From contig NZ_CP047946.1 in assembly GCF_014279655.1 (NCBI RefSeq), positions 248,001-312,000 on the forward strand: a stretch of 64,000 bases of DNA, read 5' to 3'. Under the pieces are notes generated by a model. It was not told the origin of the DNA. It worked only from the letters and a program-made list of their open reading frames with translations, and ran no database searches. The translations under genes were made by a program, and so were the position numbers. The DNA is from Synechococcus sp. ROS8604 (GTDB taxonomy: Bacteria; Cyanobacteriota; Cyanobacteriia; PCC-6307; Cyanobiaceae). This document shows, piece by piece, positions 31,692-61,495 of this stretch (its first letter is position 1; each line of letters starts with the position of its first letter).

Positions 31692-31831
31692 GCTAGCTGG
31701 GCCAGGCAGCCTGCGGATTTGCGTTCTCACTGCTCTCCAGTTTTGAGCCGTTAGCAGCGGATGCCTGCCGCTATCGCCTGCATGGCGTAGCAAGCGTTGA
31801 TGGTTATCCGAAATGATCCCGATACCATTTA

Positions 31832-32790: not shown

Positions 32791-32868
32791 CCCTGCTGCT
32801 CTCTGGGGCTGATGTGTTGGCCCCCTTAATCGCGAATTACTTGTGAGCTGTTTGGGTAATTCACTTGT

Positions 32869-33927: not shown

Positions 33928-34016
33928 TGCTCTTTGAGCACTTGATGCGCACGTCATGCGCATCATGATGATTCGCGGCAGTCGCCATCCTGCGTTCCGG
34001 AAGCGCTAAGAGTCTT

Positions 34017-34202
34017 GTGGTGGCAAAGAAGTCAGTAGTGTCTCTCCGCGAAGATCAGCATGCTTTTACCAAGGCGTTGGTGGCCGCTGGTCGCTTCCCA
34101 TTAGGGAGTGCTGCCCTGCAGGTCTTGCTGCAGCAGCGCGCCAACGGGTCCTTTATCTCTGGCGATCAACTGCGGGCCAGATTGGCTGCGCAGCCCCGAT
34201 GA
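34017..34202 (+). CDS. ParD-like antitoxin (short)
   Basis: A 61-residue protein starting with GTG: SVVSLREDQHAFTKALVAAG near the start, then a helix SAALQVLLQQ and the end ANGSFISGDQLRARLAAQP. The arrangement resembles ParD ribbon-helix-helix antitoxins but is 15-20 residues shorter than usual, and the region between the helices looks contracted. Its stop overlaps a tiny frame that may be what is left of the toxin. Confidence 0.5.
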   Translation: MVAKKSVVSLREDQHAFTKALVAAGRFPLGSAALQVLLQQRANGSFISGDQLRARLAAQPR

Positions 34203-34261
34203 GCGAGGCGCCTGTGGCGCTGGGGGAACGCCGCCTGACGAATCACTCTTGGTCGATCTAG
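34199..34261 (+). pseudogene. Possible ParE-type toxin remnant
   Basis: An ATG overlapping the ParD-like stop (ATGA, as in intact TA pairs) opens a 20-codon frame, MSEAPVALGERRLTNHSWSI, ending TAG. Its position is that of a toxin gene, but it is too short to show any domain. I read it as the stub of a deleted toxin; confidence is low. Confidence 0.3.
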
Positions 34262-34289
34262 ACTGGTCATGACCAGGAGTTGAGGTCTG

Positions 34290-34553
34290 ATGCGCGCCAA
34301 GTTGTTTCGCAATGGCCGCAGCCAGGCGGTGCGCTTGCCCGCCAGCTGCCGTTTTGAAGGGACGGAAGTGGAGGTCAAGCGTGACCCTGAGACCGGCATT
34401 GTCAGCCTGCACCCCTTGCGGTCGAGTCCTCTTGAGTGGTTGCGCCAGCGTTCAGAACTGCTGGACAGTGACTCTGGTGCCTCGGCCGGTTTTGGTGAGC
34501 TTTTCGAGATTGGCGACCTGGATGCTCCGGCTCAGCAAAGGGATTGGCCGTGA
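34290..34553 (+). CDS. vapB: VapB-type antitoxin
   Basis: An 87-residue antitoxin: [20 protein letters not shown] then [20 protein letters not shown], the AbrB/MazE-like DNA-binding fold of VapB proteins. The acidic tail [17 protein letters not shown] would bind the toxin. It overlaps vapC by GTGA at 34550-34553. This is one of the modules in the cluster that appears intact. Confidence 0.85.
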
Positions 34554-34942
34554 AGCAGCGCTTCATGCTCGACACCAATGCCGTTCGGGTGTTGTTGGAG
34601 CGTCGTTCGCCCCAGCTCGACCAATGGTTTGCCGAGGATCGCTGCAGTGTTTCGGCGATCGTGGCCGCTGAGATCCGCTTTGGTTTGGAGCGTCGTCGAC
34701 TCCCTGAACAGCGAGCTGCGTTGGTACAAAACCTTCTCGACGTTTTGCCGGTTGAAGCTTTTGATGAACCTGCTTCTCATGTCTATGGCAAGTTGCGCTT
34801 CCGGTTGCAACAGATTGGGATCACAGTGGCAGCCATGGACCTATTGATTGCCTCCCACGCTTTGGCTTTGGAGCGCACATTGATCAGTGATGACCAGGTG
34901 TTTGTTCAGCTGCCCGGCTTGCATCTCGTGCAGGCGAGTTGA
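34550..34942 (+). CDS. vapC: VapC ribonuclease toxin
   Basis: A 130-residue PIN toxin with [16 protein letters not shown] (catalytic Asp near residue 8), [16 protein letters not shown] (Glu near 40), [13 protein letters not shown] (Asp near 96) and [14 protein letters not shown] (Asp near 115). All four acidic positions are present, and LDTN...AAEIRFG...AMDLLIA is the tRNA-cleaving VapC pattern. It begins with GTG inside the vapB stop. Confidence 0.9.
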
Positions 34943-35022
34943 TCGTGGATCGCCGCCCGACGCTGATAAGACGCTCATCGTGCCGATTGCCTCTGCTGTT
35001 CTGTTGGTCATGTCATTAGCGC

Positions 35023-35205
35023 CCTGGCCCGGCAAGGCCCTATCCAGGTCAGCAAACGGAGGGGCTCAGAACGTTTTGGAGCAACGCTCCGGATTGCCGC
35101 AATTGCCGGTGAAGGCCTCTGGTGGCGTTGTGTCATGAGTTGCCACCTGATCTTCTCTCCCGCGTGCAGCGGGTAGGGCGCCGTCTCTGGACTAGAGTTA
35201 AGTGA
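35023..35205 (+). pseudogene. Chimeric scar: antitoxin piece joined to nucleotidyltransferase 3' end
   Basis: Bases 35023-35127 align, with several substitutions and small indels, to 37669-37770 inside the antitoxin at 37622 (the LARQTLSRP, then VEQRSGLPQLPMKASGG region). From about 35132 to 35205 the sequence instead matches the end of the nucleotidyltransferase at 32535-32604 (ELPPDLLSRVQRVGRRLW then a stop). Two unrelated TA genes have therefore been joined end to end. It is not translatable as either. Confidence 0.7.
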
Positions 35206-35223
35206 CCAACTAGTCATCTAGGC

Positions 35224-35469
35224 ATGCGCTCTATCGGCCTTGCTCAAGCGAAGGCACAGCTTTCGGCATTGTTGGATGCTGTTGCTTCCGGTGATGAGGT
35301 GGTGATCACCCGTCGGGGGAAGCCAGTGGCACGTTTGGTTCGTGAAGGCTCAACCTCTCAGGCCGTGAGTCAAGCCCATTGGATGCAGCGCTTCCGGGGT
35401 TTGCACATCAGTGAGTCCCTTTCTGAACCTTCTGCGGTGGAGCGGGTGCGCGAGCTGCGAGACGTTTGA
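35224..35469 (+). CDS. Phd/YefM-type antitoxin
   Basis: An 81-residue antitoxin: MRSIGLAQAKAQLSALLDAV then SGDEVVITRRGKPVARLVRE, the same Phd fold as at 601-849 (shared AKAQLSALLDAV and VARLV). The C-terminal HISESLSEPSAVERVRELRD binds the toxin. It precedes its PIN toxin by 13 bases. Its middle is duplicated in the remnant at 32600. It appears intact. Confidence 0.85.
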   Translation: MRSIGLAQAKAQLSALLDAVASGDEVVITRRGKPVARLVREGSTSQAVSQAHWMQRFRGLHISESLSEPSAVERVRELRDV

Positions 35470-35482
35470 CTGACAGGCTCTG

Positions 35483-35920
35483 ATGACAGGGAAGAGCTTT
35501 TATCTCGACACCTGTTTGCTGGTGTCGCTGGCCTTTGGGGATGGAGGTTTTCCAGCTCTGGAAATTTGGCTCGAACAGGCGCAGTCGTCATCGTTATGGA
35601 TCAGTCAGCTGGTGATCCTTGAGCTCAGTGATGTTTTGGCGCGTTCGCAGCGCAGGGGTGATCGTTCCGCAGGTCAGGTTGCTGGCATGCACTTGATGCT
35701 TTCGGAGTTTGCTAAAGAGCGGCTCGGCTTGCTGGAACCCCGCTCCCCAGACTTCGAGCGGGCCTGTGAGTGGGTGAAGGACAGCCGTTCTCCTGCTCTG
35801 CGTGGCGCCGATGCCTTGCACCTGGCCATCGCTCAGAGCCACGACCTTGAGCTGATCACCGCGGATCAGGCTCTGGTTCAGGCCGCCCAAGCTCGAGGCA
35901 TCCCGTGCCTAATGCTTTGA
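35483..35920 (+). CDS. PIN-domain toxin (VapC-like)
   Basis: A 145-residue PIN protein with FYLDTCLLVSLAFGDG (Asp near residue 8), ISQLVILELSDVLARS (Glu near 48), LRGADALHLAIAQ (Asp near 110) and LITADQALVQAA (Asp near 126). It is a close relative of the toxin at 164-604, with the same layout and Phd partner, indicating that this module type has spread within the chromosome. Confidence 0.87.
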   Translation: MTGKSFYLDTCLLVSLAFGDGGFPALEIWLEQAQSSSLWISQLVILELSDVLARSQRRGDRSAGQVAGMHLMLSEFAKERLGLLEPRSPDFERACEWVKDSRSPALRGADALHLAIAQSHDLELITADQALVQAAQARGIPCLML

Positions 35921-36154
35921 AAGGCTGGACTAACGATGTTTCGATGATTGATCTGCTCAGCAAGCTTTTCCCCCTGGCATTGCTGCCCCTTTGTTTTTCT
36001 TTGCCCCTGTTCTGATTGGGTTGATGGGCCGACAGCTTGGCCACAGCTCCTCTGAGTGGAGAATCACTCGTTGATCTCCTGCCTGGCCTTCGTCATCTCG
36101 CTCTGGATCGTGCCGTCTATTGGTTTCGTCCACGCGCTGAGCAGCGGGACATCC
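35921..36154. other. Stretch without an intact gene
   Basis: I find no gene with a recognisable family here. On the minus strand a short frame ending with TGA at about 36072 (...GTIQSEMTKARQEINE) might be the end of another lost protein. It lies between an intact TA pair and TA debris. Confidence 0.4.
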
Positions 36155-36430
36155 AGGTGCTGGCCGTTGCTGATGGCCAGGGCTGCAAGGTAGGCGTCGG
36201 TGCAACACATCCCAGCCATCGCTGGCTGCGATCGCGAGGCTTACCCATGGCTGTTGGCACAACTCTTGAAGCTGATGATGGAAGTGATCAGGGGTTGCCA
36301 TTGCCAACTACCCATTGAAATCAGGGAGATCTGCGTTGCTGGTGGTGCTGGAATCAAAGCCAAGGCGGCCTTTGACTTTTGGAAGCTGGCTAGCAGAGCG
36401 TGTTGTTGGTCTCGCGGGTTGCGTTGAAGC
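36155..36430 (-). pseudogene. Antitoxin-VapC remnant, second copy
   Basis: Leftward, 36430-36308 encodes an antitoxin tail (RPTTRSASQLPKVKGRLGFD then SSTTSNADLPDF). It is followed by pieces of the matching vapC: SLAIAASDGWDV and a frameshifted stretch equal to the YLAALAISNGW region. Compared with 33448-33650, the segment between GTTGGTG and CGACGCCTACC is deleted. The two copies keep different parts, so together they outline the ancestral pair. Nothing here is functional. Confidence 0.65.
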
Positions 36431-36640
36431 AACCTGTCTTGCTGTTGCCGATCTCTTTCTGCTTATCCCGTCATCGGCTTGATCGATGTTCAAGATTCCT
36501 GCAGTTTCCTGTAAAGGCTTTCTCTAAAGCAGGCTTCCAGGTCCGTCATTTCATCGATCGACTCGCGTTAATCAGTCCTGGCTCCGACTGCGCAGCAGCG
36601 CTAGGAGTTCTACAATAGTAAGGCGGTAAGGAGGTAAGCG
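36431..36640. other. Upstream region of the MazEF module
   Basis: No gene recognised. The short repeated pattern AAGGCGGTAAGGAGGTAAG just before 36641 contains a strong ribosome-binding sequence (AAGGAGG) for the mazE-type gene, supporting its ATG start. Confidence 0.55.
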
Positions 36641-36865
36641 ATGGACTTGGCAACGTTGACGGCAAAGGGGCAGGTCACGATCCCCAAGGGCGTAAGGGAC
36701 GCTCTCGGACTGAAGCGTGGCGATCTCGTGAGTTGGGAGCTTGAGGATGAGTCGGTTCGTCTTAGGCTGGTGTCTCCGATCGACCTGGGCTATTTGCGGG
36801 GAGTTCAGGCTGGGCTAACGGAATGGGGCAGTGATGAGGATGAAGTTGCCTTTGCAGACCTGTGA
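36641..36865 (+). CDS. AbrB/MazE-type antitoxin
   Basis: A 74-residue protein: MDLATLTAKGQVTIPKGVRD then ALGLKRGDLVSWELEDESVR is a complete AbrB/SpoVT domain. The acidic tail LTEWGSDEDEVAFADL fits toxin binding. An AAGGAGG ribosome-binding site precedes the ATG at normal spacing. It overlaps the MazF-type toxin by GTGA (36862-36865). Confidence 0.87.
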   Translation: MDLATLTAKGQVTIPKGVRDALGLKRGDLVSWELEDESVRLRLVSPIDLGYLRGVQAGLTEWGSDEDEVAFADL

Positions 36866-37221
36866 CAGCGTTTCCACCGTTCGCTTTGGTACGGGTTCCG
36901 TTTCCATTCACAGAGCGTCAGGTCATCAAGCGGAGGCCTGCGTTGGTTCTCTCCAAGCCTGCATTTCAAGAGCAAAGTGGTCATCTCCTGTTGGCGATGG
37001 TGACCAGTGCTCGCAACAGCCAATGGCCAACGGATTGGCAGATCAAGGATCTCCAGGCTGCTGGGTTAGCTCAGCCTTGTGTTATTCGCTTCAAGGTGTT
37101 CACCCTGGATCAGAGTTTGTTGATGGGTTCGCTTGGGGCGTTGTCAGAAGTGGATCAGCAAGGCGTCCAGAGCAGATTGCTTGACGTGGTAGCTCTCAGC
37201 CATGCTGATCCAAAGCCTTGA
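36862..37221 (+). CDS. MazF/PemK-type endoribonuclease toxin
   Basis: A 119-residue toxin with the PemK/MazF SH3-like barrel: FALVRVPFPFTERQVIKRRP (residues 7-26, containing the catalytic Arg region), ALVLSKPAF, GHLLLAMVTSARN (the conserved Thr/Ser after the strand) and RFKVFTLDQSLL. It starts with GTG inside the antitoxin stop. MazF enzymes cut mRNA at short motifs. Its last 26 bases overlap the end of a HEPN gene on the other strand. Confidence 0.87.
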   Translation: MTAFPPFALVRVPFPFTERQVIKRRPALVLSKPAFQEQSGHLLLAMVTSARNSQWPTDWQIKDLQAAGLAQPCVIRFKVFTLDQSLLMGSLGALSEVDQQGVQSRLLDVVALSHADPKP

Positions 37222-37591
37222 GGATGCTCAACACCTCACCGGCCGTTGCTAAGGCTTGATCGGTTTCCTCTGGGTCGAACAGCTCGGAAGGCGGGGTTGC
37301 ATCCATCGGATAGAGAGATTGGATCGCCATCCGGCTGAGGCTGCGCAGAGATAGGGCCTCTAAGTCCTTGGTCTCTAAGCCCGTTTTCTTTAGCCGCCTC
37401 GTTAAAGCGTTGAGCACATGTGTGTGCGGAGGCTCCAGTCCTAATTCCAGAAGTGCGCTTTTTAAGCCTTTTTCGGCTGCTTGTGATGCGTCAAAGCAGG
37501 CTTGCGCCAAGTAGCCGTTGTCACGTGCCAGTTGAGCGAGCTCGAGGTCATTTTGGGCTTGGCGTAGCCATGCATCCGGCCTTGCATTCAT
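37196..37591 (-). CDS. HEPN-domain protein, orphan
   Basis: A 131-residue HEPN protein: ARPDAWLRQAQNDLELAQLA near the start, then YLAQACFDASQAAEKGLKSA (classic HEPN helix) and PPHTHVLNALTRRLKK. The common Rx4-6H active-site motif is not evident, so it may be a non-catalytic subunit. HEPN genes of this type normally sit beside a nucleotidyltransferase; none is adjacent, and mazF overlaps its 3' end. I chose the Met at 37591; an in-frame start at 37639 adds 16 residues. Confidence 0.75.
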   Translation of the reverse strand: MNARPDAWLRQAQNDLELAQLARDNGYLAQACFDASQAAEKGLKSALLELGLEPPHTHVLNALTRRLKKTGLETKDLEALSLRSLSRMAIQSLYPMDATPPSELFDPEETDQALATAGEVLSILKALDQHG

Positions 37592-37621
37592 GGCATATCC
37601 GCCAGTAACGGAATAGCGGCC

Positions 37622-37816
37622 TTGGCCGCATTGCGCCAAACCACGCTCGGTGATGTGATCAGCGACCTAGCCCGGCAGACCCTATCCAGGCCAGCAGACG
37701 GAGAGTCGCAGAACTTTGTGGAGCAACGCTCTGGATTGCCGCAATTGCCCATGAAGGCTTCTGGTGGGGTCGTTGATCTGGAGCTTGTCAATCAGCTTCG
37801 CGAAGAAGAGGCTTGA
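37622..37816 (+). CDS. Antitoxin of a VapC pair, possibly 5'-truncated
   Basis: The visible product (64 residues from a TTG start) contains TTLGDVISDLARQTLSRPAD, then RSGLPQLPMKASGGVVDLEL and VNQLREEEA. This matches the C-terminal two thirds of antitoxins that precede VapC proteins like the next gene. The first DNA-binding strand is missing or altered, and the 5' end overlaps the HEPN gene's start region. It may be a truncated but still toxin-binding protein. Its stop touches the vapC start (TGATG). Confidence 0.65.
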   Translation: MAALRQTTLGDVISDLARQTLSRPADGESQNFVEQRSGLPQLPMKASGGVVDLELVNQLREEEA

Positions 37817-38235
37817 TGGCCGAGCCGATTGCCCTGCTTGATGTCAACGTGCTGATCGCTTTGGTTGATCCTCAGCACGTGCAGCATGAGCCATCCCACC
37901 GCTGGTTTCCGGCCCATGGCGGCCATGGCTGGGCCACTTGCTCCCTCACTCAAAACGCGCTGTTGCGGATTCTTGGGAACCCGCGTTATCCCAACAGCCC
38001 TGGCGGACCTGTCGTTGTGATGTCCTTACTCCAAGAACTGCTAGCCCATCCGCCTCATGTGTTTTGGCCTGATGCGTTGTCCTGGAATGCCGCTGGCGTC
38101 TTTGAGGCAGAAGCACTTCTTCACCACGGGCAGATCACGGATGCCTACCTTCTTGCGTTGGCAGTGCATCACCAAGGAACGCTTGTCAGCTTTGACAGGC
38201 GTCTGAGCCCTCGCGCTGTACGCGGAGGAGGATGA
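37816..38235 (+). CDS. PIN-domain toxin (VapC-like)
   Basis: A 139-residue PIN protein: IALLDVNVLIALVDPQHVQH (Asp near residue 8), HGWATCSLTQNALLRILGNP (polar residue at the second site), ITDAYLLALAVHHQGTL (Asp near 108) and SFDRRLSP (Asp near 126). The LLDVNVLIAL...TQNALLRIL...TDAYLLALA pattern is that of the VapC subgroup with ribbon-helix-helix antitoxins, like the broken copy at 33448. It overlaps its antitoxin by one base. Confidence 0.87.
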   Translation: MAEPIALLDVNVLIALVDPQHVQHEPSHRWFPAHGGHGWATCSLTQNALLRILGNPRYPNSPGGPVVVMSLLQELLAHPPHVFWPDALSWNAAGVFEAEALLHHGQITDAYLLALAVHHQGTLVSFDRRLSPRAVRGGG

Positions 38236-38384
38236 AGAGGCGCTGCAATTGATTGCTTCAGGCTGATGACCTTTGGAAGGGCATGGATTCCGTTATCAAG
38301 CCTCCCTGCGCTGCTCGCCTCAGCCAGCAGCGCAATGTCCGATGCTGAAAACATGTTTATGCTGCTCATCCCAGTGAGGCCGTC

Positions 38385-43300: not shown

Positions 43301-43695
43301 GTTGAAAGCAGGACATAAGCCGGGTTCTGTTCACCCTTCCAAGGAAGGGGGGTAATCATCTATCTGGGATCGCCGTTACCGACGACCTCGAGCGGCGCAC
43401 AAAGGCGGAACGGGGAAGATGGCCACCCGTCGTTCCTAGGCCTTGCTCCCAGCCGGGGTTTACCGAGCCAGCACCTCTCGATGCTGCTGGTGCGCTCTTA
43501 CCGCACCTTTGCACCCTTGCCTGTGCCGGCGGAACCGGCCATCGGCGGTGTGTTTCTGTGGCACTCTCCTCACGGTCACCCGCACTGGGAATTACCCAGC
43601 AAGCCTGGCCATCGGGGAGCCCGGACTTTCCTCAACCGATGACTGCAGCCCGAGGGCAACACCCATCAATTGCGATCACCTCGCCTACTTTCAGC
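43301..43695 (-). ncRNA. rnpB: RNase P RNA
   Basis: The catalytic RNA that matures tRNA 5' ends. On the minus strand the universal GAGGAAAGTCCGGGCTCCC (P4/CR-I side) begins near 43638 and the closing GAACCCGGCTTATGTCC lies near 43325. The two ends pair as helix P1: TGAAAGTAGG (5' side, starting 43693) against CCTGCTTTCA (3' side, 43312-43303), with one G-U pair. Length, about 395 nt, is normal for cyanobacteria. It is divergent from the tRNA gene, only about 20 bases away. Exact ends are estimated from P1. Confidence 0.93.
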
Positions 43696-43713
43696 CCCCA
43701 TAATGGCCCGTGA

Positions 43714-43787
<74 letters not shown>

Positions 43788-52452: not shown

Positions 52453-53659
52453 GAGGCGCTGCCATCCCAGGCAACCGTCCTCTTGAGAGCTGTTGTTTGG
52501 GGTCAAACTGACGCTTCATGGCTTCAATCAGGGGTCGGGACGGGGCATCCAGCCAGGCGGGTAGAGCCCCGGGCTGGGTTCCCGGTTGGATCAGCACGCT
52601 GAGCTGCCCCCCTAACGCCATCACCCTTCGCCTCAGCGCTTCGATTTGGTAGTCCGGTGTGGGAAGACCGCTGGTCTGCCAGCCCTCACCGCTGCCGGCT
52701 CCAGCGGCCAGCCTCCAATGCCAGCCCGAGAGCGCCGTGCATTCCTGCGAGCTGAGCAACTGCTGGAGCTGGGCAGGGGGGAGACAGAGGCGCAGCAGCC
52801 AGGGCGGATCTGCGCTTGGGCCAGATTCTTCGGGGATCGGGTGGTCCCACGGCTGTCGCTCTGCGCTTACCCCCTGCTGGGCAGCGAGCCTCTCGAGCCG
52901 GTTGAGCTGGTCGACGACCGCAGCATCGCTGATGCTGGCCACGCCCAGCAGGATCCGTGGCCCCTGGTCCGGCCGGAGCTCCCAATCAATCCACTCGGGC
53001 GTGAAGCTGCTGCCCACCAGCTCGGCTCGTAACGCCTCGAGCTGGCTGAGTTCACCCTCCAGAACAAGCAGCCCGCGCGGTTCACGCAGCGGTTGCACTC
53101 GCAACGTGACCCCGGAGATCAAGGCGAGGCTGCCCCAGCTGCCGCAGAGCAGGCGCATCAGGTCATAGCCGGCCACGTTTTTCACCACCCTGCCGCCGGC
53201 CCTGGCGCTCACCCCATCGCTGCGGATCAAGCTGATGCCGATGATCTGGTCGCGCACGCCCAGATGCCGTTGGCGCAGACCTCCGGACAGCCCACGAGCC
53301 ACCAGCCCGCCGATCGTTCCCGCCGATGAAGGCGAGGCCATGCTGCTGCCCCAGGGCCAGTTGAGCGGCAGCCATTGCTGATGGTCTGCCAGGGCTGCCT
53401 GGAGGTCGGCCAAGGGCATGCCCGCATCCACGGTGATCGTGAGGTCATCCACGGCATGGTCAATGATTCCGGACAGCTGGCGCATGCTCAGCACCGGCCC
53501 CGCATCAGCGGCAAGAGGAGGGCCCCAGTGCAGACGGCTGCCCAAGCCAGAGGGAACCCAGGGCGTCCCATCGGCATGCATGGCGGCGATGAGTTGGCCA
53601 AGCTCCTCAACAGAATTGGGTGCTAGGACCGCAGTGGAGGACAACCCTTGTTCAGGCAC
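52427..53659 (-). CDS. glcE: Glycolate dehydrogenase FAD-binding subunit GlcE
   Basis: A 410-residue FAD-linked oxidoreductase subunit: WVPSGLGSRLHWGPPLAADA near residue 34, LTITVDAGMPLADLQAAL and WGSSMASPSSAGTIGGLVAR near 105. LGVRDQIIGISLIRSDGVSA and GGRVVKNVAGYDLMRLLCGS near 155 follow. These are the FAD_binding_4 motifs of GlcE-type proteins, without the C-terminal part of GlcD. With GlcD and GlcF it oxidises photorespiratory glycolate to glyoxylate. glcF is 1.5 kb away on the same strand, with a kinase gene inserted between them on the other strand. glcD is not in the window. Confidence 0.85.
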   Translation of the reverse strand: MPEQGLSSTAVLAPNSVEELGQLIAAMHADGTPWVPSGLGSRLHWGPPLAADAGPVLSMRQLSGIIDHAVDDLTITVDAGMPLADLQAALADHQQWLPLNWPWGSSMASPSSAGTIGGLVARGLSGGLRQRHLGVRDQIIGISLIRSDGVSARAGGRVVKNVAGYDLMRLLCGSWGSLALISGVTLRVQPLREPRGLLVLEGELSQLEALRAELVGSSFTPEWIDWELRPDQGPRILLGVASISDAAVVDQLNRLERLAAQQGVSAERQPWDHPIPEESGPSADPPWLLRLCLPPAQLQQLLSSQECTALSGWHWRLAAGAGSGEGWQTSGLPTPDYQIEALRRRVMALGGQLSVLIQPGTQPGALPAWLDAPSRPLIEAMKRQFDPKQQLSRGRLPGMAAPLNSRHSGN

Positions 53660-53700
53660 GTGAGCGACCAGGCCAGTTCAGTCAACCCATCGATCGTGCC

Positions 53701-55119
53701 ATGAAGATTGTCGTAATCGACGACGATCCCACCGGTTCTCAGACGGTGCACAGCTGCCCGCTGTTGTTGCGTTGGGATGAAGGGGCATTGCGTCGAGGGT
53801 TGAGGCACCCCTCGCCGTTGCTGTTTGTGTTGGCAAACACGCGGGCGCTCACGCCTGAGGCCGCGGCCAGCCGCAACCGCGAAATTGTGGACGCTCTGGC
53901 GCTGGCCATGGCCGCTGAAGGTCTTCAGGAGCATCAGCTGCTGCTGGTGAGCCGCGGTGATTCCACCTTGCGCGGCCACGGCGTGCTCGAACCAGAGGTT
54001 CTGGCGCAGGCCTGGGAGGAGCACTTCGGAGCGGTGGATGCCACCTTGCATGTGCCCGCCTTCTTGGAAGGAGGCCGCACCACCGTGAATGGGGTGCATC
54101 GTCTGCACGGAGAGCCGGTGCACACCACAGCGTTTGCCCAGGATCGCCTGTTTGGTTATGGCACCAGTGATCTGGCGGAGTGGCTCGAGGAAAAGAGCGC
54201 TGGCCAGATCCCTGCCAACTCAGTGCTGCGAATCCCGCTGGCGTTGCTTGAAGCTGAGCGAGCGGAGGAACTCTTGGCTTGTCTTGAGGCGCTCAACGCC
54301 AATCGATCCGTTGTCGTGGATGCGACCCACCCTGAGCATCTCCTGGCGCTCGGAGTCGCCATTCGCCGGTTGCAGGGGCGCAAGCGCTTCTTGTTTCGTT
54401 CAGCCGCAAGCCTGCTCAACGGCCTTGTGGATTCAGGTCCATCGCCCTTGGGACCCCAGCCCCTTGATGCCCATGGCCTGGTGGGCTTGCGCTGCCGCGA
54501 TCTCCATGGCCAGCCGCTCCCTGGTTTGGTGGTGGTGGGCTCCCACGTTCCTTTGGCGGATCAACAGTTAAAATCTCTGTTGGCCAATGCGCGTTGCCGC
54601 GGCATTGAGCTGCCGGTGGCTCGCATCGCCCGGGTGCTGGAGGGGGGATCTGCTGATCTGCTCTTGCCGGATCTGGAGGCTGAATGGCGGAGTCAGCTGG
54701 AGCGAGCCCTGGATGCGGGGCTCACGCCGGTGCTGTTTTCCAGTCGTGGTGAGTTGCTGTTTGGATCAGGGGCGGCAGCGGCTGCTCGGCGGCTGCGCTT
54801 TGGGATGGAGTTGGCATCCCTGATGGCCCGTCTGTTGTCCGGCGTGGCAGCGCGGCTTGGCTACCTGATCAGCAAGGGAGGCATCACCACGGGAACCCTT
54901 TTGGTGGAGGGACTTGGCCTCGAGGCTGTTCAGCTGGAGGGTCAGCTTTTGCCAGGCTTATCACTGGTGCGATCCATGTCTTCCTTGGACCAGGGGCTTC
55001 GGGAGCAGGAACCCAGCGACCCATTGCCGGTGATCACTTTTCCGGGAAATCTTGGTGAGCCAGACACCCTCACCGAGGCTTGGCGTTGGCTCGAAGGCTT
55101 GAGGGGCGAAGGGCTTTAG
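53701..55119 (+). CDS. Four-carbon acid sugar kinase family protein (DUF1537)
   Basis: A 472-residue protein of the DUF1537/OtnK group. The N-terminal domain opens IVVIDDDPTGSQTVHSCPLL (3-22), the conserved DDxTG. LFVLANTRALTPEAAASRN and VSRGDSTLRGHGVLEPEVL near 82 bind the acid sugar. The C-terminal nucleotide domain has LVVVGSHVPLADQQLKSL near 280 and GYLISKGGITTGTLLVEGLG near 388. Known members phosphorylate threonate or erythronate. It lies divergent from glcE (41 bases apart) and tail to tail with glcF, hinting at a link to acid-sugar or C2 metabolism. Confidence 0.85.
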   Translation: MKIVVIDDDPTGSQTVHSCPLLLRWDEGALRRGLRHPSPLLFVLANTRALTPEAAASRNREIVDALALAMAAEGLQEHQLLLVSRGDSTLRGHGVLEPEVLAQAWEEHFGAVDATLHVPAFLEGGRTTVNGVHRLHGEPVHTTAFAQDRLFGYGTSDLAEWLEEKSAGQIPANSVLRIPLALLEAERAEELLACLEALNANRSVVVDATHPEHLLALGVAIRRLQGRKRFLFRSAASLLNGLVDSGPSPLGPQPLDAHGLVGLRCRDLHGQPLPGLVVVGSHVPLADQQLKSLLANARCRGIELPVARIARVLEGGSADLLLPDLEAEWRSQLERALDAGLTPVLFSSRGELLFGSGAAAAARRLRFGMELASLMARLLSGVAARLGYLISKGGITTGTLLVEGLGLEAVQLEGQLLPGLSLVRSMSSLDQGLREQEPSDPLPVITFPGNLGEPDTLTEAWRWLEGLRGEGL

Positions 55120-56390
55120 TCCTTGCTTGGCGTGGCGCTGAACGGTCCCACCCCAGCGGAGCGGGCGAGCAGTTCCATGGGGTGCTCCACCTTGGGGCCG
55201 TCGTGGCTGAGGTAACGCCTCAGTTGCAGGCTGCAGCCGATGTTGGCGCTGGCCACAATCTCGGCTCCCGTGCTGCTGAGGTCGTCGGCCTTGAGTTGGC
55301 CGAGTTCAGCGGCCTCGTCTGGTTGCACCAGGTTGTAGATACCGGCACTGCCGCAACACACCCCGGCTTCCGTGGCTTCTTTGAGCTGGAGTTCGGGAAT
55401 GGCACGCAGCAAGTCCCTGGGCTGGGCGGCAATCCCCTGGCCATGGATCATGTGGCAGGCATCGTGATAAGCCACCTTGTAGGGCAGGGGTGTGAGCGCT
55501 TGTCGAAACGACTCCGAAAGCCCCCGATTGGCCAAGAATTCATGCACGTCCAACACCGGAGCACTGAAGGTGTCTGCACCATCGAGCAGTTCCTTGTAGG
55601 CCTTCATGGTGTGCCCGCAACCGGAGGCGGCTACCAGCACGGCATCCAGGGCGTCCTCTTGAAAGCTCTGCACCAACGCCCTTGCCAGCTCCTGGGTTTG
55701 TTGGAGTTGGCCTTGGTGGTGGCTCACCGCCCCGCAGCAGCCTTGATTGGCTGGAATCACCACCTCGAAGCCATTGGCTTGCAGGACGGCCACGGTGGCC
55801 GCGTTCACCCCTGGATCAAAGCAGCGTTGAACGCAACCCAGCACCAAGCCCACCCGGCCGCGTTGTTTGCCATGTGCCGGATTCACCCTGGGGAACCGAT
55901 CGGCAAACCCCTCGGGAGATAAAGGAGGCAGGAGTGCTTCCATCGCTTCCAGTTGCGGGCCCAGCAGCTTGAGTAGCCCTGTTCTGCGCGTGAACCGCTG
56001 GAGTCCTGTGCCTGCATAGGCGCGGAAGGGTTGCAGGAGCGCGCGTAGGCGTTTGGGGTAGGGCAGCACCAGGAGCAACAACTGCCGGAAACTGGTTTGC
56101 CAGCTGCTGCGGAATTCAGGTTGGTTGAGTTTTGGGCGGGTCGCTTCAATCAGTTGGTCGTAGCGCACGCCGGATGGACAGGCGGTGACGCAGGCGAAGC
56201 AGCCCAAGCAGCTATCGAAATGGCTGGCCACCGTGGCATCCATCTCCAGCTCTCCAGCTTCGATCGCCTTAAGGGTGTGGATGCGCCCGCGCGGGGAATC
56301 CATCTCCGTGCCCAGCACCCGATAGCTGGCGCAGGTGGGCAAACAAAAGCCGCAGTGAACGCAGGGGTCGCTTGGGTCGACAAAAGCCAT
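55116..56390 (-). CDS. glcF: Glycolate dehydrogenase iron-sulfur subunit GlcF
   Basis: A 424-residue protein with two 4Fe-4S motifs, CVHCGFCLPTC near residue 10 and CLGCFACVTACP near 60. Two CCG domains follow, GLVLGCVQRCFDPGVN near 208 with NQGCCGAVSHHQG, and CHMIHGQGIAAQP with VCCGSAGIYN near 355. This is the GlcF/LutA-type layout for electron transfer from GlcE/GlcD. I chose the Met at 56390 (MAFVDPSDPC); a longer frame to 56474 overlaps icd. Its end overlaps the kinase stop by four bases. Confidence 0.9.
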   Translation of the reverse strand: MAFVDPSDPCVHCGFCLPTCASYRVLGTEMDSPRGRIHTLKAIEAGELEMDATVASHFDSCLGCFACVTACPSGVRYDQLIEATRPKLNQPEFRSSWQTSFRQLLLLVLPYPKRLRALLQPFRAYAGTGLQRFTRRTGLLKLLGPQLEAMEALLPPLSPEGFADRFPRVNPAHGKQRGRVGLVLGCVQRCFDPGVNAATVAVLQANGFEVVIPANQGCCGAVSHHQGQLQQTQELARALVQSFQEDALDAVLVAASGCGHTMKAYKELLDGADTFSAPVLDVHEFLANRGLSESFRQALTPLPYKVAYHDACHMIHGQGIAAQPRDLLRAIPELQLKEATEAGVCCGSAGIYNLVQPDEAAELGQLKADDLSSTGAEIVASANIGCSLQLRRYLSHDGPKVEHPMELLARSAGVGPFSATPSKD

Positions 56391-56439
56391 AGGCCGATTC
56401 TGGCTTGAATCGGCCTGTTGGTGCTCAAAAGCGCTCCGT

Positions 56440-57864
56440 TTAAAAACGCTTGATGATGGCGTCAGCAAAACCACTACAGCTCACGGGATCCACTTTGGGT
56501 TCCATCAATCGGGCGAGGTCATAGGTGACCTGCTTGTTCTTGATGGCGGCGCTGAGGCCCTTGGTGATCAGGTCGGCGGCATCTTGCCAGCCGAGGAATT
56601 CCAGCATCATCACCCCGCTCAGGATCACGGAACCGGGGTTGATTCGATCCAATCCTGCGTGTTTGGGGGCAGTGCCATGGGTGGCTTCAAAGATGGCGGC
56701 CGTTTCACCGATGTTCGCGCCTGGGGCCATGCCAAGGCCTCCCACCATCGCGGCAGCGGCATCGGAGATGTAGTCGCCGTTGAGGTTGAGGGTGGCCAGG
56801 ATCGAATATTCCTGAGGGCGGGTTTGGATCTGCTGGAAAATGCTGTCGGCGATGCGGTCATCCACCAGCACCATGCTTTTCCATTTGCCGTAGCCGTGGC
56901 TGTCGCCAATCGCTGCGAGCACCTCGCGCACTTCTGAATCAATCGTCTCTTTTTTCTCCGGGGTCAGGCTGTCGTAGCCGGGCTCAATCATGCGCGCATT
57001 GTCCTGGGCACTGAGCGAGTGATCCCGATCGAGGTTGTCGAGAATCCAACTTTCTCGTTCCGTGATACAAACGTCGCGGAATTCAGTGGTGGCAAGCTCA
57101 TAGCCCCAGTCGCGGAAGGCGCCTTCCGTGAATTTCATGATGTTGCCTTTGTGCACCAGCGTGACGTGACGCTTATTTCCCTCCAAGCGCAGCGCGTGTT
57201 GGATGGCTTTGCGGATGTGGCGCTGGCTGCCGTTTTTGCTCACCGGCTTGATGCCGATGCCGGATCCTTCTGGAATTTGCCGTTTGCCGAGTTTGCCGTT
57301 GGCAGGGATGACGACTTCATTGAGATGCTTGCGCAGCTCTTGGCCGATCGGATCGTCGGCTTCCCACTCAATTCCCATATAGATGTCTTCCGTGTTCTCT
57401 CGGTAGACGATTACGTCAAGGTCTTGGGGGCGCTTGTGGGGACTGGGGGTGCCTTCGTAGTAGCTGCAGGGCCGGACACAGCAGTAGAGGTCGAAAATTT
57501 GTCGGAGGGCGACATTCAGCGAGCGGATGCCGCCACCCACTGGAGTGGTGAGGGGCCCCTTGATCGCCACACCGAAGCTGCGGATTGCTTCAAGGGTGTC
57601 TTCAGGAAGATATTGATAGGTGCCGTAAAGGTCGCAGGCTTCATCACCGGCATAGACCTTGAACCACTCGATTTTTTTGTCTCCCTTGTAGGCCTGAGCG
57701 ACAGCCGCATCGAGCACCTTCTGAGTGGCGGGCCAGATGTCCACTCCTGTGCCGTCTCCGCGAATGAAAGGAATGATCGGATCGTTCGCAACTATGGGTT
57801 GGCCGTTTTCGAAGCGGATTGGGGTGCCATTGATGGGGGCGGTGAGCTTCTCAAACTGAGCCAT
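56440..57864 (-). CDS. icd: Isocitrate dehydrogenase (NADP)
   Basis: Makes 2-oxoglutarate, the carbon skeleton for ammonium assimilation and the nitrogen-status signal in cyanobacteria. The 474-residue enzyme has IIPFIRGDGTGVDIWPATQK near residue 32 and the substrate loop GGGIRSLNVALRQIFDLYCC near 107. VIYRENTEDIYMGIEWEADD near 152, LVHKGNIMKFTEGAFRDWGY near 238 and EATHGTAPKHAGLDRINPGS near 393 follow. All are typical of cyanobacterial Icd. It precedes glcF on the same strand. Confidence 0.97.
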   Translation of the reverse strand: MAQFEKLTAPINGTPIRFENGQPIVANDPIIPFIRGDGTGVDIWPATQKVLDAAVAQAYKGDKKIEWFKVYAGDEACDLYGTYQYLPEDTLEAIRSFGVAIKGPLTTPVGGGIRSLNVALRQIFDLYCCVRPCSYYEGTPSPHKRPQDLDVIVYRENTEDIYMGIEWEADDPIGQELRKHLNEVVIPANGKLGKRQIPEGSGIGIKPVSKNGSQRHIRKAIQHALRLEGNKRHVTLVHKGNIMKFTEGAFRDWGYELATTEFRDVCITERESWILDNLDRDHSLSAQDNARMIEPGYDSLTPEKKETIDSEVREVLAAIGDSHGYGKWKSMVLVDDRIADSIFQQIQTRPQEYSILATLNLNGDYISDAAAAMVGGLGMAPGANIGETAAIFEATHGTAPKHAGLDRINPGSVILSGVMMLEFLGWQDAADLITKGLSAAIKNKQVTYDLARLMEPKVDPVSCSGFADAIIKRF

Positions 57865-57957: not shown

Positions 57958-58908
57958 ATGGTGAAACCTGAAGGTGTCTGGGTCGTGGCTGCTTGTTTCA
58001 ACGAGGAGGCCGTCATAGAGGCTTTCATTGAACGAGTCCTGCAGGTGCCAGGTGTCAACCGATTGGTGCTGATTGATGATGGTTCGCGCGATGCAACCGT
58101 TGCTCGGATTCGCCATTGGATGGCACAACGGCAGAACCGAGACGGTCAGGCTCCCGTCACGCTGTTAGAGCTCACGCGCAATTTCGGCAAAGAAGCCGCC
58201 ATGCTGGCTGGATTGGATCATGCCCAAGGTCAATGCGCCGCCGCTGTGTTGATCGACTCGGATTTGCAGCATCCTCCTGAGCTGATCGAATCGATGGTGC
58301 AGGCATGGCGAGATGGAGCTGAGGTGGTCACGGCGGTTCGGGACGACCAAGATCAGGAATCACGCCTCAAGGTGGCTAGCGCATCTTGGTTTTACCGCGT
58401 CTTCAACAAAGTGGTTGATTCGATTCAGCTGCAGGAAGGAGCAGGAGATTTTCGCCTCTTGGATGCCGGTGTTCTTGAAGCGTTCACGCGGTTGCGAGAG
58501 TCGAGTCGCTTTTCGAAGGGGCTGCTGCCTTGGACGGGCTACCGCAGCATTGAAGTGCCTTATCAGCGTGTCACGCGCAGCTCAGGACAGTCCTCTTGGA
58601 GCCCTCTTCAATTGTTCAGTTATGCCTTTGATGGCATCTTTTCTTTTTCGGTTCTACCCCTAAGGGTTTGGACTGGAATTGGCATTGTTGTATCGTTAGT
58701 TAGCCTCATATACGCCAAATACATCGCGATTCGCACGATGGTGACTGGGGTAGAGATGCCTGGATATGCCTCTTTGTTAGTGGCTGTTTTGTTTTTGGGC
58801 GGGATTCAGCTGATTGGGATCGGTGTTCTTGGGGAATACATCGGTCGGATTTATGTGGAGGCCAAGGATCGCCCCCACTACTTCATCCGAGCGGTTCACA
58901 ACTCCTGA
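57958..58908 (+). CDS. Polyprenyl-phosphate glycosyltransferase (GtrB/DPM-like GT2)
   Basis: A 316-residue GT-A transferase: VWVVAACFNEEAVIEAFIER near residue 6, RLVLIDDGSRDATVARI near 37, LTRNFGKEAAMLAGLDHAQG near 71 and AVLIDSDLQHPPELIESMV near 95 with the metal-binding DSD. Two C-terminal membrane helices follow (about residues 232-256 and 268-292: VLPLRVWTGIGIVVSLVSLI and YASLLVAVLFLGGIQLIGIG). This is the layout of enzymes that load a sugar on undecaprenyl phosphate. It converges on a GtrA-deacetylase fusion with a 13-base tail overlap; the pair may act together. Confidence 0.9.
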   Translation: MVKPEGVWVVAACFNEEAVIEAFIERVLQVPGVNRLVLIDDGSRDATVARIRHWMAQRQNRDGQAPVTLLELTRNFGKEAAMLAGLDHAQGQCAAAVLIDSDLQHPPELIESMVQAWRDGAEVVTAVRDDQDQESRLKVASASWFYRVFNKVVDSIQLQEGAGDFRLLDAGVLEAFTRLRESSRFSKGLLPWTGYRSIEVPYQRVTRSSGQSSWSPLQLFSYAFDGIFSFSVLPLRVWTGIGIVVSLVSLIYAKYIAIRTMVTGVEMPGYASLLVAVLFLGGIQLIGIGVLGEYIGRIYVEAKDRPHYFIRAVHNS

Positions 58909-60230
58909 AGCGCTTGCCATTCCCGTTGTCGCCACGGAGAGGCGGCAAAGGGTTGCGACACAGAGAACCCTGCTTCCCTGAGATTGCGCGAGAGCGGTGC
59001 ACCTGGATGGGCAAGCAGGAGTGGTTGGGTTCGATTCGCTCGGGTCGGGAGGACTGAAAGGGTTTGATGGGCCGCTCGCAGCGGCTGGCCTGCCATCTGT
59101 CCGGTGAACAACACACCGGCAAATCCGCCATTGCTGGCAATGCCAAGTCGTTGCTGCTTGCCCTGCGCACGGCGGCTGAGAACCTCCAGCACGAGCCATT
59201 TGAGCAGCCCCGCTTGGCGGATTGCGTCCCACCAGCAGCGCAGATCGAGTCCCGTGGGAAGTGGCTCTGTTGTGCTGCGCATCCAGGTGATCTGTTGCTC
59301 GCCTGAAACCTGCAATAGGCAGTCGTGCACGATTGGCACCAGGTGCACATGCTGATGGCCGTCTAGGTGAACCGGGACGTCATCGCCGCAGAGTTGCCGG
59401 AAGCGGGCAAGTTGCGCCTGAATCTCTTGGTGGAGTTGACGGGTCACCCGCTGTCGCCGCGGGTGCATGGCGGGGAGCAGGGACAGAGAGAGCCATGTCC
59501 CAAAGGAAAGCTTGAGATGGCCGTCAGGGTTAACGAGATCGGGGATCGCCGAGGCGAGGGCGCTGCAAGGCCCTTCGGTTAAGCAAAGGTGGAGGCAAAG
59601 CTCAAGGTCTGGTTGCTCGGCTTGAAGTGCTGTCCAGGCCTCTACCCCCCGGGAGGCCGTAGGCCCCTGCACGAGCAAGCTGGCTCCATCCAACTTGCCG
59701 ATGCCTGCGAGTTGAAGGATGGCGTTGTTGGTGGCTTCGCTGAGGCCGAGATCATCCGCATGCACCCGTGGTCGTTGCTGCTGGCTTCGCTGCTTTGCGC
59801 TGAAGCGGGCGGCCTTCGACCAGATCAGGGCATTGAGAACCGTGGGAGTGAACACCAAAATCCCCAGTCGGATCACGCTGGGGACGGCGCCTGGGAGGAC
59901 GAGTGGCAGCACACCGCAGACGGACAGATTGACCACGTATTGGATGACCAGCCAGCGCCGTGCAAAGCGTTGCCCCCCCGTCTCCGGCTTGAAGGTGTAA
60001 CGCGCGTGACCGAGATAACCGGCGATGGAGGCCGCCAAAAAGGCCAGCGGATTCGCGGCCCAGAGCGGCATGAGCACCCCCAAGGCAAGCAAGACGCCGG
60101 CATGAACGATCGCGGCACCAATGCCGACGAGCCCGTAAAGACTGATCCGAGTGAAGGGAGAGGCCAGGGATCTGTTGCTGCTGTGGATGAACCGTAACGG
60201 CAGCTGGCGCAAGTCCTGTTGAAGCTTCAC
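58896..60230 (-). CDS. GtrA-like membrane domain fused to a ChbG/YdjC-type deacetylase
   Basis: A 444-residue fusion. Residues about 27-140 hold four hydrophobic segments of the GtrA type (YGLVGIGAAIVHAGVLLALG, then NPLAFLAASIAGYLGHARYT). From 153 a ChbG/YdjC/HpnK deacetylase follows: PRVHADDLGLSEATNNAI with metal-binding Asp and His, CLHLCLTEGPC near 213, LDGHQHVHLVPIVHDCL near 289 (His292, His294, His296) and LLLAHPGAPLSRNL near 405. GtrA proteins move polyprenyl-linked sugars across the membrane; YdjC proteins deacetylate N-acetyl sugars. I chose GTG 60230; the frame extends to 60317, overlapping the divergent gene. Confidence 0.8.
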   Translation of the reverse strand: MKLQQDLRQLPLRFIHSSNRSLASPFTRISLYGLVGIGAAIVHAGVLLALGVLMPLWAANPLAFLAASIAGYLGHARYTFKPETGGQRFARRWLVIQYVVNLSVCGVLPLVLPGAVPSVIRLGILVFTPTVLNALIWSKAARFSAKQRSQQQRPRVHADDLGLSEATNNAILQLAGIGKLDGASLLVQGPTASRGVEAWTALQAEQPDLELCLHLCLTEGPCSALASAIPDLVNPDGHLKLSFGTWLSLSLLPAMHPRRQRVTRQLHQEIQAQLARFRQLCGDDVPVHLDGHQHVHLVPIVHDCLLQVSGEQQITWMRSTTEPLPTGLDLRCWWDAIRQAGLLKWLVLEVLSRRAQGKQQRLGIASNGGFAGVLFTGQMAGQPLRAAHQTLSVLPTRANRTQPLLLAHPGAPLSRNLREAGFSVSQPFAASPWRQREWQALQEL

Positions 60231-60246
60231 CCTGGGGTCAGCGGCG

Positions 60247-60708
60247 ATGAACCCTGTGAATGCGGCAGCGGCGGTCCATAGCGTGGCCTTGGCCCAGACC
60301 TTGGCCTCCAGCGTCACGCTGGTGCGACGGCAGTTCCCTGCAGCTCAGCCGAATTTGAGCCCCTGGCGCGATGACCCTTGCACACGCCATTGGGACGAGG
60401 CCGCAACCTTGGATTTGGCCTTCGATTTTCCAGGTTGGAGCCCGCGGCTGCAGTGCCGCAGCTTGTTGCTGCAACTCCGGCTCAAGTCGGAGGCGGGGGG
60501 GACGGATGCGACCTGCCCATCCCTCCTGGGCGTGGTCATGCGTGGGATGACGTTTGAGGGCGAACGCTGGCGCTTGGCAACGGTGGGCGACTGGTTGCCG
60601 GTTGGCCCCCACCTACCCCAGCTGGATCAGGTGGAGCAGCTGCAGTTGATCTGCCGAGAGTTGTTTGAAGTGTTCGAACAGGGTGTGCCCAATTGCACCA
60701 GTTCTTAA
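60247..60708 (+). CDS. Hypothetical protein, 153 residues
   Basis: No named family recognised. It begins MNPVNAAAAVHSVALAQTLA, perhaps a helix, then a Trp- and Arg-rich part (LSPWRDDPCTRHWDEAATLD) and a beta-rich stretch RWRLATVGDWLPVGPHLPQL. Codon use fits the core genome. It is divergent from the GtrA fusion with only 16 bases between starts, so one of the two starts may lie further downstream. It precedes ho1 by 73 bases. Confidence 0.6.
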   Translation: MNPVNAAAAVHSVALAQTLASSVTLVRRQFPAAQPNLSPWRDDPCTRHWDEAATLDLAFDFPGWSPRLQCRSLLLQLRLKSEAGGTDATCPSLLGVVMRGMTFEGERWRLATVGDWLPVGPHLPQLDQVEQLQLICRELFEVFEQGVPNCTSS

Positions 60709-60781: not shown

Positions 60782-61495
60782 ATGTCCGTCGCTCTGGCTA
60801 CCCAGCTCCGGGAAGGCACGAAAAAGTCACACACCATGGCCGAGAACACTGGCTTTGTGAGCTGCTTCCTGAAGGGTGTGGTGGACAAGCTGAGCTATCG
60901 CAAGTTGGTGGCAGACCTCTTCTTTGTCTATGAAGCCATGGAAGAGGAGATGCATCGACTCAAGGATCACCCCGTGTTGTCCCCGATTGCCTTTGAGCAG
61001 CTCGATCGCGTCACCGCCCTCGAGGAAGACCTCGCCTTCTACTTCGGCCCTGAGTGGCGCCAACAGATCGAAGCCTCTCCTGCCGCAACGGAGTATGTGG
61101 CTCGGATTCGTGAGGTGGCTCAGACGGCTCCTGAGTTGTTGGTGGGTCATCACTACACCCGCTACCTGGGCGATCTCTCCGGTGGGCAGATTCTCAAGAA
61201 CATTGCTCAGAAGGCGATGAACAACCCCACCGATGATGGACTGCACTTTTATGTGTTTCCTGAAATCGCCGACGAGAAAGCCTTCAAAACCACCTATCGC
61301 TCGGCGATGGATGCCTTGCCCATTGACCAGGCCACAGCTGATCGCATCGTCGAAGAGGCCAATCAGGCGTTCCACCTGAACATGAAAATGTTCCAGGAGC
61401 TTGAGGGAAATCTTGTGGCTGCCATCGGCAAGGTCCTGTTTGGTTTCCTGACGCGCCGTCAGCGGACAGGAAGCACCGAGGCCGCTGTGGCCTAG
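60782..61495 (+). CDS. ho1: Heme oxygenase
   Basis: Opens heme to biliverdin IX-alpha with ferredoxin, the entry to phycobilin pigments. The 237-residue protein has LREGTKKSHTMAENTGFVSC with the proximal heme ligand His17. FFVYEAMEEEMHRLKDHPVL near 47, HHYTRYLGDLSGGQILKNIA near 124 (distal helix, GDLSGGQ) and EANQAFHLNMKMFQELEGNL near 195 follow. All heme-pocket residues are present. It is a strong sign of a phycobilisome-bearing or related cyanobacterium. Confidence 0.97.
   Translation: MSVALATQLREGTKKSHTMAENTGFVSCFLKGVVDKLSYRKLVADLFFVYEAMEEEMHRLKDHPVLSPIAFEQLDRVTALEEDLAFYFGPEWRQQIEASPAATEYVARIREVAQTAPELLVGHHYTRYLGDLSGGQILKNIAQKAMNNPTDDGLHFYVFPEIADEKAFKTTYRSAMDALPIDQATADRIVEEANQAFHLNMKMFQELEGNLVAAIGKVLFGFLTRRQRTGSTEAAVA

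Follow-up and report, generated by a model that had tools for sequence, protein, structure and literature searches.

A convergent GtrB-type glycosyltransferase and GtrA-YdjC fusion in marine Synechococcus-type cyanobacteria: a candidate polyprenyl-phosphate sugar pathway with a built-in deacetylase

The 64,000-bp window analysed here (bases 248001-312000 of the one-contig, 2.88-Mb genome of Synechococcus sp. ROS8604) harbours two convergent genes, one for a family 2 glycosyltransferase (GT2) and the other for a single protein, below called the fusion, in which a GtrA-type membrane domain is joined to a YdjC-type deacetylase domain (Table 1). An earlier note on this DNA had described a GT2 with two C-terminal helices starting at 57958 and a single GtrA-YdjC protein converging on it, and both descriptions held: the GT2 domain was recognised by Pfam (PF00535, 8e-25) and two hydrophobic stretches were present in the hydropathy profile at approximately residues 227-261 and 262-291, while the fusion contained, in one frame, both PF04138 (GtrA_DPMS_TM, 36.5 bits versus a cut-off of 26.1) and PF04794 (YdjC, 136.9 bits versus 29.7), with the 3' ends of the two genes overlapping. 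The open reading frame (ORF) of the fusion is open from 60317 (58896-60317, minus strand, 473 amino acids counted from the first possible start), and 60230, given as its end by the earlier note, is an in-frame GTG; the start may lie slightly further in, because the alignment with full-length relatives begins at about residue 14-32 and residues 1-19 of the structure model have a predicted local distance difference test score (pLDDT) below 50. The fusion was the only YdjC-family match in the window genome at E 0.001.

The best solved relative of the GT2 was GtrB sll0501 of Synechocystis (5ekp, phmmer E 1.4e-80), to which residues 9-310 align, followed by ArnC (9hwj, 5.7e-34). Like GtrB, the GT2 has kept the DXD motif (D100/D102) and the catalytic aspartate (D164, pairing with GtrB D157), all three residues being invariant in the 19 aligned GT2 sequences, a set from which L108 (stop codon in range) and L101 were left out.

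The structure model of the fusion had a mean pLDDT of 91.4 and a predicted template modelling score (pTM) of 0.82, with GtrA-domain helices at residues 25-51, 56-78, 91-111 and 118-149, the fourth of which extends towards the YdjC domain. The best Foldseek matches of the latter among solved structures were ChbG (7vi8, 4.8e-10), CmCBDA (8jqe) and TTHB029 (2e67). In an alignment of 34 fusions (excluding L026, which has an in-frame TAG, and fusions whose loci had not been fetched), 14 of the 15 deacetylase positions checked were invariant, including H157, D159, D160, H214, E219, D290, H292, H296, R318, E322 and H408, and the fifteenth, H294, was kept in 33. We take H157, D159 and D160 of the HADDLG motif to have a catalytic or metal role, and the residues of DGHQHVH presumably have a metal role as well. 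Judged by these positions, the deacetylase domain looks intact.

Positively charged loops of membrane proteins tend to face the cytoplasm (positive-inside rule). Lysine plus arginine averaged 4.06 in loop 2 and 5.21 in the C-linker over the 34 fusions versus 0.32 in loop 1 and 0.38 in loop 3, and because of this concentration both loop 2 and the YdjC domain are predicted to be cytoplasmic. The predicted sides agree with the published model of GtcA, in which the loop between the second and third transmembrane helices is drawn as cytoplasmic and that between the third and fourth as external (PMC7389260). The GT2 and the deacetylase are thus predicted to act on one membrane face. A deacetylase on the wrong side for a lipid-linked substrate had been named in the earlier note as fatal to its idea; both the helix count in the model and the charge distribution place it, as a prediction, on the cytoplasmic side, which is where GT2 enzymes of this type produce their polyprenyl-phosphate sugars.

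Table 1. Coordinates of the gene pair, its domains and motifs, and the flanking genes in the window
Feature	Position	Strand	Remarks
GT2 polyprenyl-phosphate sugar synthase, GtrB/ArnC type	57958-58908	+	316 aa; PF00535
GtrA-YdjC fusion	58896-60230	-	444 aa from GTG at 60230; start uncertain; both Pfam domains above cut-off
GtrA-type membrane domain, proposed flippase part	59784-60158	-	residues 25-149; four helices; PF04138
YdjC/ChbG-type deacetylase domain	58905-59765	-	residues 156-442; PF04794
Motif HADDLG	59745-59762	-	residues 157-162; aligns with ChbG NADDFG
Motif DGHQHVH	59343-59363	-	residues 290-296; aligns with ChbG DSHHHVH
13-bp tail-to-tail overlap of the GT2 and fusion genes	58896-58908	n/a	ORF coordinates
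Isocitrate dehydrogenase-type gene, conserved left neighbour, outside the system	56440-57864	-	PF00180, 1.5e-81
Heme oxygenase gene, conserved right neighbour, outside the system	60782-61495	+	PF01126, 4e-86

The fusion is not a product of chance, because 49 of 201 Cyanobiaceae genomes matched it at a threshold of 1e-10, and in 46 the match spans the greater part of both domains (full fusions). The three partial matches covered either the GtrA part only (G131 and G184) or the YdjC part only (G005). Two of the full fusions, both counted, contained in-frame stops (four in G120, one in G122), and the remaining 44 were stop-free; 18 of the fusion genomes are incomplete (64-94%), making absences there weak. 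GT2 relatives were detected at 1e-40 in 69 of the 201 genomes, 46 of them at an identity of at least 56%, and the latter group was distributed over 45 of the 46 full-fusion genomes versus a single one of the 155 others (G131). All 46 GT2-fusion pairs, the truncated pair of G131 included, were located on the same contig and were convergent; the 3' ends of the matches were separated by -6 to 86 bp except in one pair, where the gap was 1227 bp. The earlier note had named a lack of conservation of the two genes as neighbours as a refutation, but they are conserved: the GT2 of at least 56% identity converges on the fusion in 45 of the 46 full-fusion genomes, the distance exceeding 86 bp in just one of them (1.2 kb), and in the remaining genome, G052, the corresponding position is taken by a more divergent GT2, also in convergent orientation. 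A scan of named genomes, limited to the best 80 of 526 confirmed stretches, found the GT2 adjacent in 23 of 23 cyanobacterial loci, WH7803 and RCC307 among them, although these loci overlap with the 201-genome set and are not independent of it. The nearest named relatives at the locus among these 80 were marine Synechococcus, with a fusion identity of 88% in the metagenome-assembled genome (MAG) SP2 and 83-84% in AG-679-C18.

Outside the Cyanobiaceae, no match over both domains was found at 1e-12 in 386 genomes of the phylum (family members included), and no fusion covering 80% was present among 72,556 plasmid and 50,697 phage records. The closest non-cyanobacterial YdjC domains among the best 80 of 526 stretches were separate proteins; three loci that had matched across both domains (L109, L114 and L154) were rejected as fusions and proved to be separate neighbouring genes. 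The 57 non-cyanobacterial loci among these 80 were chosen by likeness to the YdjC domain of the fusion and are phylogenetically clustered, so that the following fractions describe this set only. A GT2 was present in 51 (49 at E<1e-40, 39 within 300 bp), with no match in the fetched DNA of the remaining six (L098, L100, L104, L107, L110 and L151); a GtrA protein was found in 16, in 14 of them within 300 bp of YdjC, and GT2, GtrA and ArnT/PMT occurred together in 13. Examples of such unfused gene sets came from Herminiimonas (L109), Chromobacterium (L114) and a proteobacterial MAG (L154). Since the GT2, GtrA, YdjC and ArnT-type genes are separate neighbours in some proteobacteria, the cyanobacterial protein has the character of a Rosetta-stone fusion, and these unfused neighbours lend support to a coupling of deacetylation and translocation. 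No paper joining YdjC, GtrA and undecaprenyl was found in the literature searched.

ArnT was rejected as a universal partner of the pair, since the ArnT encoded beside the fusion in G081 matched in only one of the 201 genomes at 1e-25, and DUF2079 was put in its place; the PMT_2 domain (PF13231), present in 193 of the 201 genomes, was too common to discriminate. In genus g10, four genomes (G064, G134, G165 and G177) have a DUF2079 gene of the type found in G165 (DUF2079-I, defined as a relative of the G165 protein at an identity of at least 54%) at 77-80 bp from the fusion; in genus g25, four genomes (G024, G097, G119 and G154) have a second type, DUF2079-II, at 87-120 bp from the GT2. Membership of DUF2079 was confirmed by Pfam for the proteins of G165, G052 and G024 and for both types in the window genome (348.6 bits versus a cut-off of 28.2 for its DUF2079-I). 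DUF2079-I was detected in 36 of the 46 fusion genomes versus three of the 155 others (G007, G034 and G043), counting G100 (fragments) and G007 (one stop); these counts and the Fisher values ignore phylogeny. Two comparison genes from the DUF2079 island of the window genome were far less specific to the fusion: PMT was present in 40 of 46 versus 64 of 155 and DUF2079-II in 39 of 46 versus 40 of 155. Within single genera, DUF2079-I occurred in 8/8 fusion versus 0/2 fusion-free genomes in g5, 4/4 versus 0/6 in g10 and 4/4 versus 0/1 in g30; in g32 it was present in three of the four fusion genomes, with no fusion-free genome for comparison.

The model of DUF2079-I (pLDDT 91.0, pTM 0.90) returned ALG12 and ArnT as weak top matches in Foldseek (E 5.8e-4 and 7.5e-4). 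In a structural comparison Pmt4 (Z 18.8, root-mean-square deviation (rmsd) 4.3, 310 aligned) and ArnT 5f15 (Z 17.5, rmsd 4.8, 406 aligned) were retrieved, the first 49 rows were glycosyltransferase-C (GT-C) or GT-C-like membrane proteins, and the drop in Z, from 9.0 to 4.9, did not come before the end of these rows. Just behind its first helix DUF2079-I has an aspartate, Asp37, that was invariant in 30 aligned DUF2079 sequences; an essential acidic residue occupies this position in GT-C enzymes. DUF2079-I is predicted, then, to have a GT-C fold like that of ArnT, a fold being in itself no proof of function, and, going by co-occurrence, gene adjacency and this model, a DUF2079 protein is a likely candidate for the third part, the GT-C transferase, of the proposed pathway. 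In three genomes without a fusion match (G010, stretch L067; G151; G056) a GT2 of 40-43% identity stands directly beside a DUF2079 gene, which suggests that GT2 and DUF2079 are an older pair. A literature search for DUF2079 together with glycosyltransferase found no paper. In the window genome, DUF2079-I (2572321-2573715) belongs to an island (G000:C1:2568885-2576873; L048:8886-16874) that also contains three more DUF2079 genes and a PMT_2 gene. Next to these stand two porin-like genes resembling each other; the one scanned has OprB and SLH domains, and the content of the island varies among other genomes of the family.

We consider it reasonably probable that the pair belongs to a three-component polyprenyl-phosphate sugar pathway with a built-in deacetylase. 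The GT2, whose family and catalytic residues are plain from the alignments, would use a uridine diphosphate sugar to charge polyprenyl phosphate with an N-acetylhexosamine on the cytoplasmic side, the choice of sugar being suggested by the partner protein. The conserved YdjC domain, predicted to hang in the cytoplasm from the fourth GtrA helix, would remove the N-acetyl group and leave a lipid-linked free amine, and the GtrA domain of the same chain would move the polyprenyl-phosphate hexosamine to the periplasmic leaflet, coupling deacetylation with translocation; the covalent joining of the deacetylase to GtrA implies a free-amine sugar. A GT-C enzyme, proposed on the basis of predicted fold and of linkage to the fusion, would finally attach the amine sugar to a glycan of the envelope. 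For this step most fusion-bearing picocyanobacteria would probably use a DUF2079 protein, whose gene usually lies away from the locus, and the Cyanobium NIES-981-like lineage would use the ArnT homologue beside the fusion. More tentatively, and with the balance somewhat against it, DUF2079 may be a GT-C family in which DUF2079-I attaches the free amino sugar delivered by the fusion, deacetylated as it is flipped, to a glycan other than lipid-A phosphate, with the phosphate of lipid A governing a switch between ArnT and DUF2079.

Several observations weigh against this pathway or against DUF2079-I as its final component. GtrB sll0501, the nearest solved relative of the GT2, is described as glucose-specific and makes undecaprenyl-phosphate glucose, a sugar without an acetyl group (PMC4728340), while the GT2 of the window is proposed, from its genomic context, to use an N-acetylhexosamine; flipping by the small transporters is described as lacking direct demonstration (PMC11127046), and the lipopolysaccharide (LPS) of WH8102 and CC9311 is reported to contain less glucosamine than glucose (PMC4515613), which would count here if these strains carry the fusion. 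The three fusion-free genomes with DUF2079-I become 15 of 155 if the bar is lowered to 43% identity, which adds 12. Within genera, the association is imperfect in g1 (6/7 versus 1/3) and g43 (1/1 versus 1/1), and the protein is missing from the fusion genomes of g25 (0/4, type II being adjacent), g45 (0/1, with ArnT instead) and g52 (0/1). Altogether ten of the 46 fusion genomes had no DUF2079-I at 54% (G011, G019, G024, G052, G073, G081, G097, G119, G123 and G154). Among these, G024, G097, G119 and G154 have DUF2079-II beside the GT2, G081 has ArnT, G052 has a 30% relative of DUF2079-I located 3.0 kb from the locus, and G011, G019 and G073 are 65-94% complete; G123, which is 99% complete, has the fusion without DUF2079-I, PMT and DUF2079-II relatives being present. 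The DUF2079-I gene of the window genome lies 2.26 Mb from the locus on the contig (approximately 0.6 Mb the other way if circular). Other GT-C genes could also be the partner, the window genome having three PMT_2 matches and four island DUF2079 genes, and the island PMT and DUF2079-II also correlate with the fusion, though less than DUF2079-I.

The glucose specificity of sll0501 would also fit a neutral-sugar Gtr system, with polyprenyl-phosphate glucose as the product of the GT2, GtrA as its flippase and YdjC as a vestigial or unrelated passenger. Two genomes seem to speak for it: in G184 GtrA adjoins a GT2 without YdjC, and in G131 (genus g5) the GT2 and GtrA are retained at the same locus while the frame runs from the GtrA helix straight to KEWTSAQQL, the last YdjC residues, which reads as an in-frame loss of the deacetylase domain. 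However, the GT2 of G131 is itself altered, with FR replaced by QLI after the catalytic Asp, alone among the 19 aligned GT2s, and no DUF2079-I match was found in this genome; as a single case, G131 fits a joint decay of one pathway. A passenger domain also agrees poorly with deacetylase residues conserved as strictly as described above, with the 44 stop-free fusions and with the recurrence of the GT2-YdjC neighbourhood outside cyanobacteria, and we regard the neutral-sugar system as unlikely.

Still less probable is a ChbG-like salvage of soluble chitin or GlcNAc, with GtrA serving only as an anchor. The YdjC fold of the fusion does match ChbG, its motifs align, and chitin use by picocyanobacteria has been reported, with a chitinase in 38% of subcluster 5.1 strains, said to be without chitin deacetylase capability (PMC11851481); YdjC does not occur in the main text of that paper. 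Against this, the fusion is membrane-fused and scored 64 bits with the NCBIfam model of ChbG (PRK02134), below the cut-off of 227; moreover, a GT2 of the polyprenyl-phosphate type is linked to it in 45 of 46 genomes, as are GT-C genes in some.

The earlier note had drawn an analogy with Francisella, in which the amine sugar is added to lipid A. NaxD of Francisella and LgmA/C of Bordetella take part in the decoration of lipid A with amino sugars via polyprenyl-phosphate hexosamine, and the parts of the NaxD and LgmA-D systems, a GT2, a YdjC-family deacetylase and an ArnT-type GT-C, resemble those considered here. They differ in that the deacetylase of the present system is fused to GtrA, the likely partner is mostly DUF2079 and not ArnT, and LpxK is unmatched in the host. 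In the window genome a YdjC deacetylase does stand beside a polyprenyl-phosphate GT2, but LpxK had no match there, nor did the G081 ArnT have a relative at 1e-25, although three weaker PMT_2-family matches were present. LpxK, the 4'-phosphate kinase, was unmatched in 45 of the 46 fusion genomes, the window genome included, a result that is weaker for the 18 of them that are 64-94% complete. The 1-phosphate of lipid A is independent of LpxK. In Bordetella, LgmB is described as adding glucosamine to the lipid-A phosphates (PMC11401268), while the LPS and lipid A of two marine Synechococcus strains are reported to be phosphate-free, with a galacturonic acid and neutral core sugars (PMC4515613). 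With LpxK unmatched in nearly all carriers of the fusion, lipid-A phosphate is probably not what usually receives the sugar; decoration of the Francisella/Bordetella type is accordingly improbable as a general explanation, and for the organism of the window this part of the analogy is not supported.

The same set of parts (GT2, YdjC deacetylase and ArnT-type) does occur in G081, L090 and L091. G081 (genus g45) was the sole fusion genome with an LpxK match, and its ArnT gene follows directly after the fusion. LpxK was found in 9/9 g45 genomes tested and, elsewhere, in one (G030) of 24 genomes without a full fusion that were searched; no relative of the G081 ArnT was detected at 1e-25 in the other 200 family genomes, that of the window included. 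L090 and L091, both MAGs of the Cyanobium NIES-981 type, have an ArnT beside the fusion at 61-62% identity, that of L090 being a PMT by Pfam. For the G081 lineage alone, lipid-A phosphate decoration has about an even chance of being correct, and the acceptor-side enzyme seems to follow the state of lipid A, as seen in this one lineage only. Hopanoid glucosamine synthesis of the HpnI/HpnK type can be dismissed as highly improbable, because the NCBIfam HpnK match of the fusion (E 1.5e-26) reached 93.3 bits versus a cut-off of 232.6 and the squalene-hopene cyclase domain (PF13243) was found in none of the 28 fusion genomes tested out of 46.

The proposed polyprenyl-phosphate pathway shares with the GtrA/GtrB/Gtr(type) and CsbB/GtcA/YfhO systems a GT2 synthase, a small putative flippase of the GtrA type and, as a proposed component, an outside transferase, and it differs from them in that those systems, as described in the sources cited, have no deacetylase, which here is covalently joined to GtrA (PMC7389260, PMC11127046). 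Gtr-type three-component glycosylation and amino-sugar donors of the NaxD/Lgm type would thus be joined in one chain, apparently detached from lipid-A phosphate, which suggests that marine Synechococcus-type cyanobacteria may decorate their cell surface with charged sugars by a route so far unrecognised. The deacetylation step and the membrane side on which it occurs matter for the lipid-A amino-sugar pathways of several bacteria, and a protein that unites a flippase domain with a deacetylase predicted to be cytoplasmic allows the side of deacetylation to be tested directly. If the proposal is correct, abundant ocean phototrophs would also make cationic sugar decorations, with a positively charged sugar and without phosphorylated lipid A; such decorations may bear on phage adsorption, grazing and attachment, and DUF2079 would gain a function.

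The genes flanking the pair are conserved around it, at least in part of the family. In the 30 loci L002-L031, the isocitrate dehydrogenase-type gene was located at most 1.5 kb from the fusion in 28 (exceptions L009 and L015) and the heme oxygenase gene near it in 27 (exceptions L009, L012 and L013); neither neighbour was found at the loci of g10, g25, g45 and G052. A 153-aa protein without a Pfam match (60247-60708) was encoded near the fusion in 25 of the same 30 loci (not in L009, L010, L012, L022 and L030). On the far side of the isocitrate dehydrogenase-type gene, a four-carbon-acid-sugar-kinase-like gene (SBD_N/NBD_C) overlaps the 3' end of a GlcF-like iron-sulfur gene (53620-56474), the latter scoring 248.7, below the GlcF equivalog cut-off of 333.

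Elsewhere in the window, the region at approximately 4000-28000 has a low G+C content (0.29-0.48 per 2-kb step versus about 0.58 around it) and looks like an acquired polysaccharide gene island, which ends with an initiating sugar transferase (27882-29318, PF02397, 3.3e-67). It is followed at 29400-38240 by small ORFs with toxin-antitoxin-type domains: PIN (34544, 35483 and 37813), HEPN (37639) and nucleotidyltransferase substrate-binding (31832). An RNase P RNA (RF00010, minus strand) adjoins a tRNA-Arg (CCT) on the opposite strand at 43301-43787.

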